NCBI GenBank assembly: GCA_938044705.1
Contig: CALIOL010000096.1
Coordinates: forward strand, 1 to 34,366
Reading direction: 5' to 3'
Length of the DNA stretch: 34,366 nt
Source of the DNA: an uncultured Ilumatobacter sp.
GTDB taxonomy: Bacteria > Actinomycetota > Acidimicrobiia > Acidimicrobiales > Ilumatobacteraceae
The notes beneath the pieces were generated by a model. The model was not told the DNA's origin. It was given only the letters and a program-made list of their open reading frames with translations, and searched no databases. Every line of letters starts with the position of its first letter. Position 1 is the stretch's first letter. The translations under genes and the position numbers were made by a program. Below, piece after piece: positions 16,743 through 21,438 of the stretch.

Positions 16743-17448
16743 CGGAACGCTCGCTCGGCTTGGTGAACCGCCCCTCGACGCTCCGGACCGCCACGACGGC
16801 ACTCATCGCCGCAAGGATCGGGAGACCCGCAGGTGCGAACGGAACGAGCGCGACGGCAACGATCGCTCCGATCACAGCAACCGCCAGCTGACGGCGATCT
16901 TCCAACCTCGGCCACAACAACGCCAGAAACGCAGCCGGTCCCGCAACATCGAGTCCAAGGTCGCGAATGAGATCGCCGGCTCCGCTGAAGAGTACGAAGC
17001 CGACGACCGTCGTCAGGTTCCAGACGACGAAGACTCCGAGACCGCCGGCGAGGTATCCATACCTGCGATGCGCGAGCTCCTCCGAGGCAGTACCGACCGC
17101 CGTCGACTCGTCGATCATCACCTGTGACATCAGTGCCCGCTTCCAGAGCGGACCATCGAGAGCTGGCGCCATGATCACACCGAACGCAAGCGACCGGACA
17201 TTGAGCAGCAACCCCGCGAGTGCCGCCGCCGCGATCGAACCGCCATCGCCGAGGATCTCGACCGCGGCGAACTGCGAGCTCCCGCCGAACACGAAGACCG
17301 AATAGCCGATTGCCTCCCACACGCCAAGGCCCGACGTCGAAGCGGCAGCACCGAACACGATGCCGAACGGCGCTACCGCCGCGGTGATCGACACGGCCAT
17401 CCGTCGAAGCCGACGGCGTTCGATCGCGTGTACGTGTTCGCCGCTCAT
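16735..17448 (-). CDS. azlC: AzlC-family branched-chain amino acid exporter
   Basis: AVAPFGIVFGAAASTSGLGVWEAIGYSVFVFGGSSQFAAVEIL...LLLNVRSLAFGVIMAPAL; start MSGEHVHAIERRRLRRMAV preferred over upstream 17571. Confidence 0.9.
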   Translation of the reverse strand: MSGEHVHAIERRRLRRMAVSITAAVAPFGIVFGAAASTSGLGVWEAIGYSVFVFGGSSQFAAVEILGDGGSIAAAALAGLLLNVRSLAFGVIMAPALDGPLWKRALMSQVMIDESTAVGTASEELAHRRYGYLAGGLGVFVVWNLTTVVGFVLFSGAGDLIRDLGLDVAGPAAFLALLWPRLEDRRQLAVAVIGAIVAVALVPFAPAGLPILAAMSAVVAVRSVEGRFTKPSERSGE

Positions 17449-17530
17449 CGACACCAGAACGAAAGTGCGGAACCGGACGGGCGCAAAGAACCATCTACGG
17501 TGTCCGAGCTGGCGGAACCCCGATCGATCG

Positions 17531-18232
17531 GTGTCGCAACCTCCGCAACCAGAAAGGCCGACGTTGGACACACTGCTGCTGAATCTCGCCTACACCTTCT
17601 ACGTCGCTGCGAGCCTGATGCCATCGGGTCTGAAGTTACGCCTCGGCCTCATTGCTCAGAGCATCGCCTTCATGACGTGGGCGGTCGCGACCGGCACGCC
17701 GACGACCTTGGTCTGGAACATCCTGTTCGTCTCGGTGAACATCTATCAAGCCATCCGCATCGTCCGACGCAATGCCGTGACGCTCGGCGCCGAGGAAGAA
17801 TCGATCCGGACCGCGATCTTCCCGAACCTGAGCAAGCGTGACTTTCTCCAGCTGTGGGCTGCAGGTCGCGGCGACGACGCACCCGTCGGCGAGCGGCTGT
17901 GCACCGAAGGCTCGCCAAACCGAGACCTCTTCCTCCTGACGTCGGGCGAACTGCTCGTGACGACCCGAGCCGGCCTTCGTCGAACCCGAAGGTCCACGTG
18001 CTTCATCGGCGAGATGAGTTTCCTGTCCGGAGAAGCAGCCAGCGCGGACGTCGTCGCGGCCACCCCGATCCGGTTTCGCCAATGGAACCAAGACGACCTG
18101 CGTGCACTGAATCTGCTGAATGCAGAGTGCTCAAAAGCACTGCAGGACGCAATGGCCCTGGACGTGACGCGCAAACTTCGGGACGAGAACGCGACAACAT
18201 CCGACACCAGTGGCGAGTCGGGCCCGGAATAA
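17531..18232 (+). CDS. Popeye-like protein: N-terminal TM segments plus divergent cyclic-nucleotide-binding-like domain
   Basis: Hydrophobic helices LLNLAYTFYVAASLMPSGLKLRLGLIAQSIAFMTWAVATGTPTTLVWNILFVSVNIYQAIRIVRRN; CNBD-like RDLFLLTSGELLVTT..FIGEMSFLSGEAASADVVAATPIRFRQW; start GTG 17531 or TTG 17564. Confidence 0.75.
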   Translation: MSQPPQPERPTLDTLLLNLAYTFYVAASLMPSGLKLRLGLIAQSIAFMTWAVATGTPTTLVWNILFVSVNIYQAIRIVRRNAVTLGAEEESIRTAIFPNLSKRDFLQLWAAGRGDDAPVGERLCTEGSPNRDLFLLTSGELLVTTRAGLRRTRRSTCFIGEMSFLSGEAASADVVAATPIRFRQWNQDDLRALNLLNAECSKALQDAMALDVTRKLRDENATTSDTSGESGPE

Positions 18233-18316: not shown

Positions 18317-19084
18317 ATGCGCTCGAAGGGCACCGACGACATGACGGCAAACAGCACGAAACGAAAAGCGACTCGAGGCCTCCTGGCAGCAGCACTCTTG
18401 GGTCTGGCGGCGTGTTCGACGTCGGGAACCGCCGAACCCACGGAACCGACGATCGCCGCGGACGCTACAGCGATCATCGACGCCTCGGCGAGAGCGATGG
18501 GAGCGACCACCAGCGTCCGCTTCGAGTTGCGTCGCGAAGGCGCTCCGGTCTTCATCGACGAGTTCGACCGGCTCACGCTCAACTCCGCCATCGGAGAGTT
18601 CACGGTGCCGCGCTCTGCGCGTGCACTGCTCGAAGTCGGTGTCGAAGGCGGCCTCACCACCGAGCTCGGCGCGATCGCGCTCGACGACGAGGTGTGGCTC
18701 TCGAATCCGATCACCGGCAACTTCGAAACCCTCCCCGCCGGCTACGACATCGACCCGTCGCTCTTCTTCGACCCGGAAAACGGCTGGCAGCCACTGATGG
18801 AGAACCTCTCCGACGCGACACTGGTCGGCACCGAAGACCGCGACGGCAACTCCCGCTACCACATCACGGCGACCGCGCCGGCCGAACAGGTCGAGGTCAT
18901 CACCGCTCGCCTCGTCCGAAACCAAGAGGTCGACATCGACTTCTGGATCCAGCCGGTGACGGGCGAGGTCCGCGAAGCACAGTTCTCCGCCGACTTCGGT
19001 GGCGCCGAGGTTCGTTGGACCTTGCTGCTCAGCGACTACGGCGCCGAGTTCGACATCCAGCCGCCCGAAGAGATCGCGTCGTGA
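18317..19084 (+). CDS. LppX/LprA/LprG-family lipoprotein
   Basis: Lipobox LLGLAACS; ASARAMGATTSVRFELRREGAPVFIDEFDRL..AIGEFTVPRSARALLEVGVEGGLTTELGAIALDDEVWLSNPITGNFETLPAGYDIDPSLFFDPENGWQPLMENL. Confidence 0.82.
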   Translation: MRSKGTDDMTANSTKRKATRGLLAAALLGLAACSTSGTAEPTEPTIAADATAIIDASARAMGATTSVRFELRREGAPVFIDEFDRLTLNSAIGEFTVPRSARALLEVGVEGGLTTELGAIALDDEVWLSNPITGNFETLPAGYDIDPSLFFDPENGWQPLMENLSDATLVGTEDRDGNSRYHITATAPAEQVEVITARLVRNQEVDIDFWIQPVTGEVREAQFSADFGGAEVRWTLLLSDYGAEFDIQPPEEIAS

Positions 19085-21438
19085 CCACGTCGCTCGAAGC
19101 CGAACCAGGCCGACGGAGTGCATCGCCGCGAGCCATCCTCTGGGCGGTCGGCTTCAGCGTGTTCGTCGCCGCAGACGACCTCACGGTCGTGTCGACGATG
19201 CTCCGACCGATCATCGGCGATCTCGGCCTCGTGCTCCCCGACGGACTCGATGACGCCGCCTGGATCGTCAACGCATATCTGATCGCGTTCATCGCGATCA
19301 TGCCGATCGCCGGACGCGTGAGCGACGTGATCGGGCGTCGACGCACGTTCATGATCGCGTACGCGATCTTCACCGTCGGAACGATCTGGATCCCGCTGAC
19401 GAATTCGCTGGGACCCCTTCTGATGGGCCGCGTGCTGACCGCGATCGGAGGCGGTGCGATGGTGCCGGTCGCGCTCGCCGTGGTCGGTGACGTCTATTCC
19501 GAACGCAAGCGAGCACGAGCACTCGGCACCTTGGGCGCGATCGAGACAATGGGCTGGGTCTGGGGCCCGCTGTACGGAGCCATGCTCGTCCGGTTCCTCT
19601 CGTGGAGGTGGCAGTTCTGGCTGAACGTGCCGCTCGCGATCGTCGGCGCCGCCGCGGTGTGGTGGGCGCTGGCCGAGCACGACCGGCCCGAACGGCGCTG
19701 CCGCATCGACTGGCTCGGGGCCTCGCTGCTGACCGTCGTTCTCGTCTCGCTGAACCTCGCACTGCTGGGCTCAGCTGAAGTTCAAAGCGTCCAGGGCCTC
19801 GACGAGTTGACGGGCAACGGCGGTACGGACCTCCGGTTGCTCTATCCCGTCGCGCTGCTCGCCGCGATCGCGCTGGTCATCCAGCAGCGTCGCCTTCGGC
19901 GCAGTGGCGGCGACCCGGTGATCGATGCCTCGCTGTTCCGCGGGCGCAACGTGCGAGTCGCCCTCATCGTCAACTTCGTCGTCGGCGCCGGCCTGGTCAT
20001 TGCGATGGTCGACGTGCCGCTGTTCATCAACGCGGTCGAGCGCGACGTCGAGCGATCCGCCGTGGTCGCCGGCTGGATCTTGTCCGCATTGACCGCAGCG
20101 ATGGCGATCGCCTCCTACATCGGCGGGCGGGTCACCGAGCGCACCTGGTACGGCCCGCCGATCGTGCTCGGTCTGTTCGCTGCAACAGGGGCCTACGCCC
20201 TGATGGGCCTGACCTGGGACGGCACCAGCTCCTATGTCCTTCTCGGGCTGCAGCTGGCGGTGCTGGGCGCAGGAATCGGTCTGACCGTTGCGCCGACCAC
20301 GTCGGCAGTGGTCGACCACGCCGCACCCGAATCGCGCGGCGCCGCAGCAGCTGTCGTCATGGTCGTCAGAATGATCGGCCTCAGCGTCGGTCTCTCTGCG
20401 CTCACCGCGTGGGGCCTGGCCAGGTTCAACGCACTACGCGGCGACCTCGACCTGCCAGCGATCACCGACCCCGGCTTCGGGGCAGCGCTCGAAGCGGCAA
20501 CAGAGCAACTGACCGCCCAATCCATCGCCGACACGTTCCTCGCCAGCGCTGTCGCACTCGGCGTCGGCCTCGCTGCATGCCTCGTGCTGCTGCGGCGACC
20601 GACACCACTCCACCCCGACAAGAAGGGACCCACCCCCATGGCCGACGACGCCGACGACTCCATCACCTCCGAACACGACACGTTCGATGCAACCACACGA
20701 ATCACCGACACCGACGAGATGCCGGTGCTCGAACTGGACACCGACGACCTCGAGCTGGAGGACCAGCCGACCGATGCCCCACCCGTCGGTTGGGTTCAAC
20801 GCAACCTGACGACGGTGGTCGCCGCCATGGGTGTGCTGCTCATTGCATCGCTGGCGCTGTCCGTCTTCATGTTCTCTCGGGTTCGTGCGGCCGAGGACGA
20901 ACTGGCAACGACCCAGGAAGACCTCCAGCGTGTCGAAGCAGGCGCTGCGCTCTTTGCCTCCCAGGTCAACGGCTTCGTCGAGACCGTCAACGAGCTCGGC
21001 CCGTCGATCGACGAGGGTTTGGATCAGGCGGTGACCGAGCTCGAGGACTTCGGGACGTCGAAGATCGAGTTCACGGTGCCGATCGATCAGACCATCACGA
21101 TCGACGAGACCTTCGATCTCGAACGCACGGTCCAGGTACCGATCAACACCTCGATTCCGATCGACGAGGAAGTCGAGACGACGATCACGGTCAACGGGCC
21201 GTTCGGCGTCGACATCCCGATCGACATCACCGTGCCCATCGATCTCGACGTGCCGATCGACCTCACCGTGGACATTCCGATCGACGAGTCGATTCCGGTC
21301 AACGTCGACGTGCCCGTGAAACTGGATGTTCCGATCTCGATCGATGTCGAAGGCACCGAGCTGGAGACCCTGACGCAATCCCTCATCGATGGCCTGCTTG
21401 CGTTCCAAGAAGGGCTCTCCGGTCTTACGGGGAGCTGA
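19081..21438 (+). CDS. EmrB/QacA-type MFS transporter with in-frame C-terminal TM/coiled-coil/VPID-repeat extension
   Basis: GTGA overlap with lipoprotein stop; SDVIGRRRTFMIAYAIFTVGT, GGGAMVPVALAVVGDVYSERKRARALGTLGAIETMGWVWGPLYGAML; no stop between the MFS body and MADDADDS...VAAMGVLLIASLALSVFMF...VPID repeats. Confidence 0.88.
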   Translation: MTTSLEAEPGRRSASPRAILWAVGFSVFVAADDLTVVSTMLRPIIGDLGLVLPDGLDDAAWIVNAYLIAFIAIMPIAGRVSDVIGRRRTFMIAYAIFTVGTIWIPLTNSLGPLLMGRVLTAIGGGAMVPVALAVVGDVYSERKRARALGTLGAIETMGWVWGPLYGAMLVRFLSWRWQFWLNVPLAIVGAAAVWWALAEHDRPERRCRIDWLGASLLTVVLVSLNLALLGSAEVQSVQGLDELTGNGGTDLRLLYPVALLAAIALVIQQRRLRRSGGDPVIDASLFRGRNVRVALIVNFVVGAGLVIAMVDVPLFINAVERDVERSAVVAGWILSALTAAMAIASYIGGRVTERTWYGPPIVLGLFAATGAYALMGLTWDGTSSYVLLGLQLAVLGAGIGLTVAPTTSAVVDHAAPESRGAAAAVVMVVRMIGLSVGLSALTAWGLARFNALRGDLDLPAITDPGFGAALEAATEQLTAQSIADTFLASAVALGVGLAACLVLLRRPTPLHPDKKGPTPMADDADDSITSEHDTFDATTRITDTDEMPVLELDTDDLELEDQPTDAPPVGWVQRNLTTVVAAMGVLLIASLALSVFMFSRVRAAEDELATTQEDLQRVEAGAALFASQVNGFVETVNELGPSIDEGLDQAVTELEDFGTSKIEFTVPIDQTITIDETFDLERTVQVPINTSIPIDEEVETTITVNGPFGVDIPIDITVPIDLDVPIDLTVDIPIDESIPVNVDVPVKLDVPISIDVEGTELETLTQSLIDGLLAFQEGLSGLTGS
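21061..21357 (+). repeat. Protein-level VPIDxxI / IPIDxxV beta-repeat segment within the MFS C-terminal extension
   Basis: EFTVPIDQTITIDETFDLERTVQVPINTSIPIDEEVETTITVNGPFGVDIPIDITVPIDLDVPIDLTVDIPIDESIPVNVDVPVKLDVPISIDVEG. Confidence 0.9.

Follow-up and report, generated by a model that had tools for sequence, protein, structure and literature searches.

The region 18317-21438 of the window (as we call the whole stretch of 34,366 nt examined) raises the question of what is made from a gene pair in which a lipoprotein is followed by an MFS transporter with a long additional C-terminal part, and of what that part might do. The TGA of the lipoprotein gene (19082-19084) overlaps the GTG of the MFS gene (19081-19083) as GTGA, and the MFS frame runs from 19081 to 21438 without a stop (785 aa). 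Counted from a Met at 20638, the C-terminal extension comprises 266 aa. The original prediction had noted both the overlap and some 270 extra in-frame residues with an acidic stretch, a TM, a coiled coil and a VPID repeat; both are found, with the same composition. The putative internal start, the giant hairpin and the existence of the extension as an independent, in places unfused, family were not part of that prediction. The pair is made up of the following features:

18341..19084, + strand: LprG-like lipoprotein (PF07161 and PDB LprG matches)
19081..19084, + strand: GTGA, overlap of lipoprotein stop and MFS start (sequence)
19081..20637, + strand: MFS of 14-TM DHA2 type, Rv1410/MHAS2168-like (8pnl match; AlphaFold; Foldseek)
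20618..20640, + strand: putative internal start of translation, in-frame ATG at 20638 behind SD-like AAGAAGGGA (conserved in relatives, weak in the window)
20638..20784, + strand: acidic disordered cytoplasmic linker or N-terminus, extension residues 1-49 (pLDDT ~50, no secondary structure)
20785..21057, + strand: one long predicted helix, TM15 and then an extracytoplasmic coiled-coil-like part, extension residues 50-140 (AlphaFold pLDDT 74-95 in blocks of ten)
21061..21345, + strand: predicted giant amphipathic beta-hairpin (VPID repeat), strands at extension residues 142-186 and 192-236 (AlphaFold; strand-length covariation; hydrophobic/polar alternation)
21358..21426, + strand: predicted C-terminal amphipathic helix, extension residues 241-263 (AlphaFold)

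Directly 5' of the lipoprotein gene, positions 17360-18232 encode a POPDC/cyclic-nucleotide-binding-like membrane protein (PF04831, PF00027).

The Lipoprotein and the MFS Transporter

The lipoprotein frame is open from 18317 to 19084. The ATG at 18341 is the likely start, as it gives a more typical signal peptide of 25 residues, which ends in the lipobox LAAC (sequence GLLAAALLGLAAC). The protein matches PF07161 (LppX_LprAFG) with 78.6 bits against a gathering cut-off of 24 (E 7.5e-22) and LprG in the PDB by sequence (3mh9, E 2.7e-05). Judged by its sequence, it is a member of the LppX_LprAFG family, in line with the LprG/LppX-like character first proposed.

The MFS gene follows directly, and both sequence and AlphaFold model assign its product to the 14-TM DHA2 type. 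Among solved structures, the best sequence match is 8pnl, the Rv1410 ortholog MHAS2168 of M. hassiacum (phmmer E 2.4e-50), EfpA, QacA, and EmrB being far behind by sequence. The full-length AlphaFold model contains 14 MFS helices, and its top Foldseek match is again 8pnl (E 8.6e-23, TM 0.83 on target). LprG-Rv1410c (P55) is a mycobacterial lipid export operon, and PDB 8pnl is the structure of MHAS2168 (PMC10576003; PMC4709180). In the window pair, as in this operon, a gene for an LppX_LprAFG lipoprotein precedes one for a 14-TM DHA2 MFS. Long external extensions are carried by TM13 and TM14 of the MFS, which are TM11 and TM12 in Rv1410 numbering; the predicted equivalent helices (416-453 and 466-503, 38 residues each) agree with those that extend outside the membrane in Rv1410. 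The equivalents of D22/D35, R118, N184, and R426 are also kept: D33, R117, N182, and R430 of the window protein align with D35, R118, N184, and R426 of MHAS2168 and are invariant across 35 fused relatives. In MHAS2168, the Asp of TM1 and the Arg of TM4 and TM11 are needed for or implicated in transport (PMC10576003). Unlike in Rv1410, the ion-lock Glu is displaced by one residue, T156 aligning with the TM5 Glu of the lock (E147/E157; E157) and the window Glu, E155, lying one residue earlier. By the features tested, all derived from sequence or model, lipoprotein and MFS belong to the LprG-Rv1410 kind, and the equivalence of the two pairs that had been proposed holds by homology. The host order, Acidimicrobiales, is not known to possess a mycomembrane, unlike the mycobacterial hosts of LprG-Rv1410c.

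The fold is common to DHA2 transporters, and the MFS matches the EmrB-type model TIGR00711, though with 173.3 bits for a cut-off of 230.2 bits. It is nevertheless improbable that the pair consists of an EmrB/EfpA-like drug/H+ antiporter and a lipoprotein that serves another purpose, since a triacylglyceride transporter is the best match in both structure and sequence and since the MFS gene overlaps that of an LppX_LprAFG lipoprotein.

Conservation and Distribution of the Extension

A profile of the extension gave 17 full matches and one short weak match in 397 genomes of the order. All 17 extension-positive genomes encode a PF07161 protein, which is present in only 35 of the 397 overall; the expected co-occurrence of extension and LprG is borne out. 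Scanning genome contigs yielded 48 extension loci, nearly all from Acidimicrobiia, including Ilumatobacter nonamiensis YM16-303. In 37 of these the extension lies with an MFS, fused in one frame in 34; lprG was found in 36, and the exception starts at a contig edge. Together with the window and the genomes G007 and G348, all three fused, and G028, where the extension is split off, this makes 41 lprG-MFS-extension loci across Acidimicrobiales, of which 37 are fused in frame, virtually always adjoining lprG.

Merging of two genes by a missed stop or a frameshift, which the original prediction would have suspected had all close homologs lacked the extension, has a negligible probability. The extension is indeed a separate gene in G028, L130, L133, and L136, but the 37 fusions come from many assemblies, all are in frame, and the relatives' extensions are 36 to 67% identical to that of the window. 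Because the same open fusion is found in independent assemblies of other species, including the one-contig genomes G007 and G348, it is not an assembly or frameshift artifact. Two ordinary separate genes, translationally coupled, describe only the four split loci. As these nest as one supported clade among the fused loci, the split arrangement looks derived. In I. nonamiensis YM16-303, a contig break falls within the linker, at an inverted repeat (end of L027 and L028); the reading frame appears to continue from one contig end to the other.

The extension is absent from four lprG-MFS pairs near the same MFS clade (G052, G059, G283, G381) and from a distant lprG-MFS group (f15/f21). Family f15 (L095, L097, L098, L099, L100, L103) represents another lprG-MFS type of the order, distant from the first and without the extension, with an MFS ~38% identical over the N-terminal part. 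Outside the order, a wider search of the phylum returned weak matches only. The extension has no match in Pfam (at E 1), in NCBIfam or, by sequence, in the PDB. On these comparisons it is an independent protein family, which also exists unfused; lacking a Pfam or NCBIfam match, this conserved family of Acidimicrobiia is hidden within genes for which the annotation would be MFS transporter.

Predicted Structure of the Extension

The AlphaFold model of the extension (38 sequences) has a mean pLDDT of 82, with 83-94 in the hairpin blocks, and places a helix at residues 50-140, strands at 142-186 and 192-236, and a helix at 241-263. The full-length model agrees on this fold at lower confidence. 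The extension would thus comprise one TM, then a long helix and a giant amphipathic beta-hairpin, a C-terminal module not described for Rv1410. The 14 MFS helices of the model support the topology originally proposed, in which the C-terminus of the transporter is cytoplasmic and the added TM places the repeat outside.

The predicted hairpin is one antiparallel pair with about 45 residues per strand, which at 3.3 Å per residue amounts to ~15 nm. Its side chains alternate, one face being mostly V/I/L/F and the other mostly D/E/T/N/P. Strand lengths covary exactly: most sequences have 45/45 residues, four species have 51/51, and I. nonamiensis has 25/25. Since the two lengths change together across species, they support the hairpin independently of the model. 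Both strands of the I. nonamiensis YM16-303 protein are 20 residues shorter.

Foldseek found no significant structural relative of the extension (best E 0.017); its weak matches are mostly rings or barrels of long hairpins. SpoIIIAG, the FliF collar, and pore-forming barrels also contain very long amphipathic hairpins, in oligomers, but the likeness is an analogy of shape, with no sequence or significant fold relation to the extension. In EmrAB, a DHA2 MFS likewise works with an extracytoplasmic partner of a single TM and a long helix; unlike the predicted giant hairpin of the window, this partner is not fused. The extension was also considered as an EmrA/HlyD membrane-fusion adaptor and rejected, as it shows no HlyD, lipoyl or beta-barrel domain (no Pfam match at E 1) and no significant PDB fold match. 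The missing EmrA-like adaptor domain counts further against a drug antiporter.

A Conserved Putative Internal Start at the Junction

The in-frame ATG at 20638 lies at the junction of MFS and extension, with the SD-like AAGAAGGGA upstream, and nearly every fused gene has an in-frame ATG or GTG behind an SD at this place, in a weakly structured stretch. An SD of at least four bases, 4-11 nt before an in-frame junction start, was found in 20 of 20 genes (19 fused or inferred fused and one split); of the remaining in-frame ATGs in these genes, 5 of 235 have one (Fisher p 2e-25). Over 40 loci, the median anti-SD duplex energy at the junction is -8.2 kcal/mol, compared with -2.5 at 509 in-frame ATGs elsewhere (p 2e-21), and the RNA has less structure at the junction than over the remainder of the gene (-6.8 vs -11.1 kcal/mol, p 2e-9). 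The first of these tests is possibly biased, as the start was chosen for having an SD. We therefore compared the best ATG or GTG of the whole linker with equal windows of the same gene; with this correction the combined p is 4e-12, for loci that are not independent, and the signal is weaker per locus, many not being significant alone. The junction site of the window itself is the weakest (-5.3 kcal/mol, p 0.66 alone).

The start codon at the junction is ATG in 36 loci and GTG in 5. Several fused species have an internal Met within about ten residues of the TM. The start of the extension gene in the split clade lies where the internal start of the fused genes does; in G028, AAGGAG is followed by a GTG overlapping the TGA of the MFS gene. 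Standalone hairpin proteins of 209 aa, encoded near an ABC exporter in three genomes (L127:1208-1837, L131:5983-6612, L134:1372-2001), begin at the same point as well (MKQAYIAVSAALVLS in L127). The conservation of the start signal suggests that the fused gene is translated both into the fusion and into a separate hairpin protein.

It is unlikely, in our view, that only the fusion is made and that the SD-like sequence is a pause site or a remnant of the gene that was once separate. In favor of this reading, 37 of the 41 loci read through the junction without a stop and so certainly encode the fusion, and the SD site of the window is weak. However, SD and start codon have been kept although linker length varies between 23 and 83 codons, always in frame, and linker residues are unrelated between loci. 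The only two fused loci without a junction ATG, L121 and L141, have a GTG instead (in L141 behind GGGGGT, duplex -10.0), that is, the start codon is kept while the amino acid is changed. A pause site, moreover, would have no need of a start codon, and the low RNA structure at the site also argues for initiation.

Two products from one gene with an in-frame internal start are known from SctQ/YscQ, whose full-length and C-terminal subunits assemble (PMC4295842), and from two-polypeptide phage endolysins, where full-length and C-terminal products assemble in 1:5 stoichiometry (PMC9430671). The window gene resembles both in having an SD and a start codon within one open frame, and resembles SctQ (FliN) in that the C-terminal part is a stand-alone domain with a separate gene in relatives. 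Unlike these cases, it is predicted from sequence and concerns a membrane transporter. At the 37 fused junctions, the SD core is in codon phase 0 in 22, in phase 1 in 15 and never in phase 2; a translated linker that avoids AGG Arg codons might be expected to lack phase 2.

Possible Roles of the Hairpin in Lipid Export

An Rv1410 ortholog has been proposed, from structure and mutations, to extract triacylglyceride and pass it to LprG (PMC10576003). By homology, the window pair would likewise export lipid. We give about even chances to the reading that the locus encodes a lipid export pair of the LprG-Rv1410 type together with a signal-anchored hairpin element, made both fused and free from one gene. 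The MFS would take a lipid with acyl chains out of the cytoplasmic membrane, receive it in a mouth lined by the long TM11/TM12 extensions and pass it to the lipoprotein. The third, signal-anchored element, with its one TM, long helix and amphipathic hairpin of ~15 nm, would be made as the C-terminal fusion of the MFS and, initiated at the conserved ribosome-binding site within the gene, also in free form. Most likely, one tethered copy and free copies would join through helix and hairpin in a small oligomer. The hydrophobic hairpin face may carry or shield lipid, or dock the loaded lipoprotein, on the way from the membrane surface through the wall. To our knowledge, no route is established by which LprG-bound lipids pass through the remaining envelope. 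The extension, as modeled, would be a rod long enough to span much of the cell wall, with a continuous lipid-like face, joined to an exporter of the LprG type. A stronger version, in which the fused arm and several internally initiated free arms form a trans-wall beta structure of at least 15 nm whose aliphatic interior conducts lipid toward the surface, seems rather unlikely.

Somewhat unlikely, too, is a lipid-free role in which the hairpin would serve as a stalk across the wall, anchoring the exporter or organizing the envelope, for instance by holding the lipoprotein or binding peptidoglycan. The rod-like predicted shape and the acidic, Pro-rich polar face would suit such a tether, as would the standalone copies near an ABC exporter. 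Searches for LprG in the three genomes with these copies gave none in two and a sub-threshold match in the third; with homologs in genomes that yielded no LprG, the hairpin is not an obligate LprG partner. On the other hand, maintaining a continuous aliphatic face of ~45 residues per strand would be expensive for a plain spacer, except where oligomerization buries it. One of the standalone genes, in L131, is also adjoined by genes for a pirin and a DUF6982 protein.

For the lipid export reading, the cargo may be considered from the distribution of WS/DGAT, which is encoded in 15 of the 17 extension-positive genomes versus 235 of the 397 overall. No WS/DGAT match was obtained in the window's own genome, which is 82% complete; the exported lipid may therefore be something other than triacylglyceride. 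The extended, probably dual-product form of the LprG-Rv1410 pair is new, and its unusual conserved gene appears to encode fused and free forms of one partner protein. A hairpin homolog on a contig labelled Chloroflexi (L154:20-562) hints that the family of TM-hairpin proteins is wider than Acidimicrobiia.
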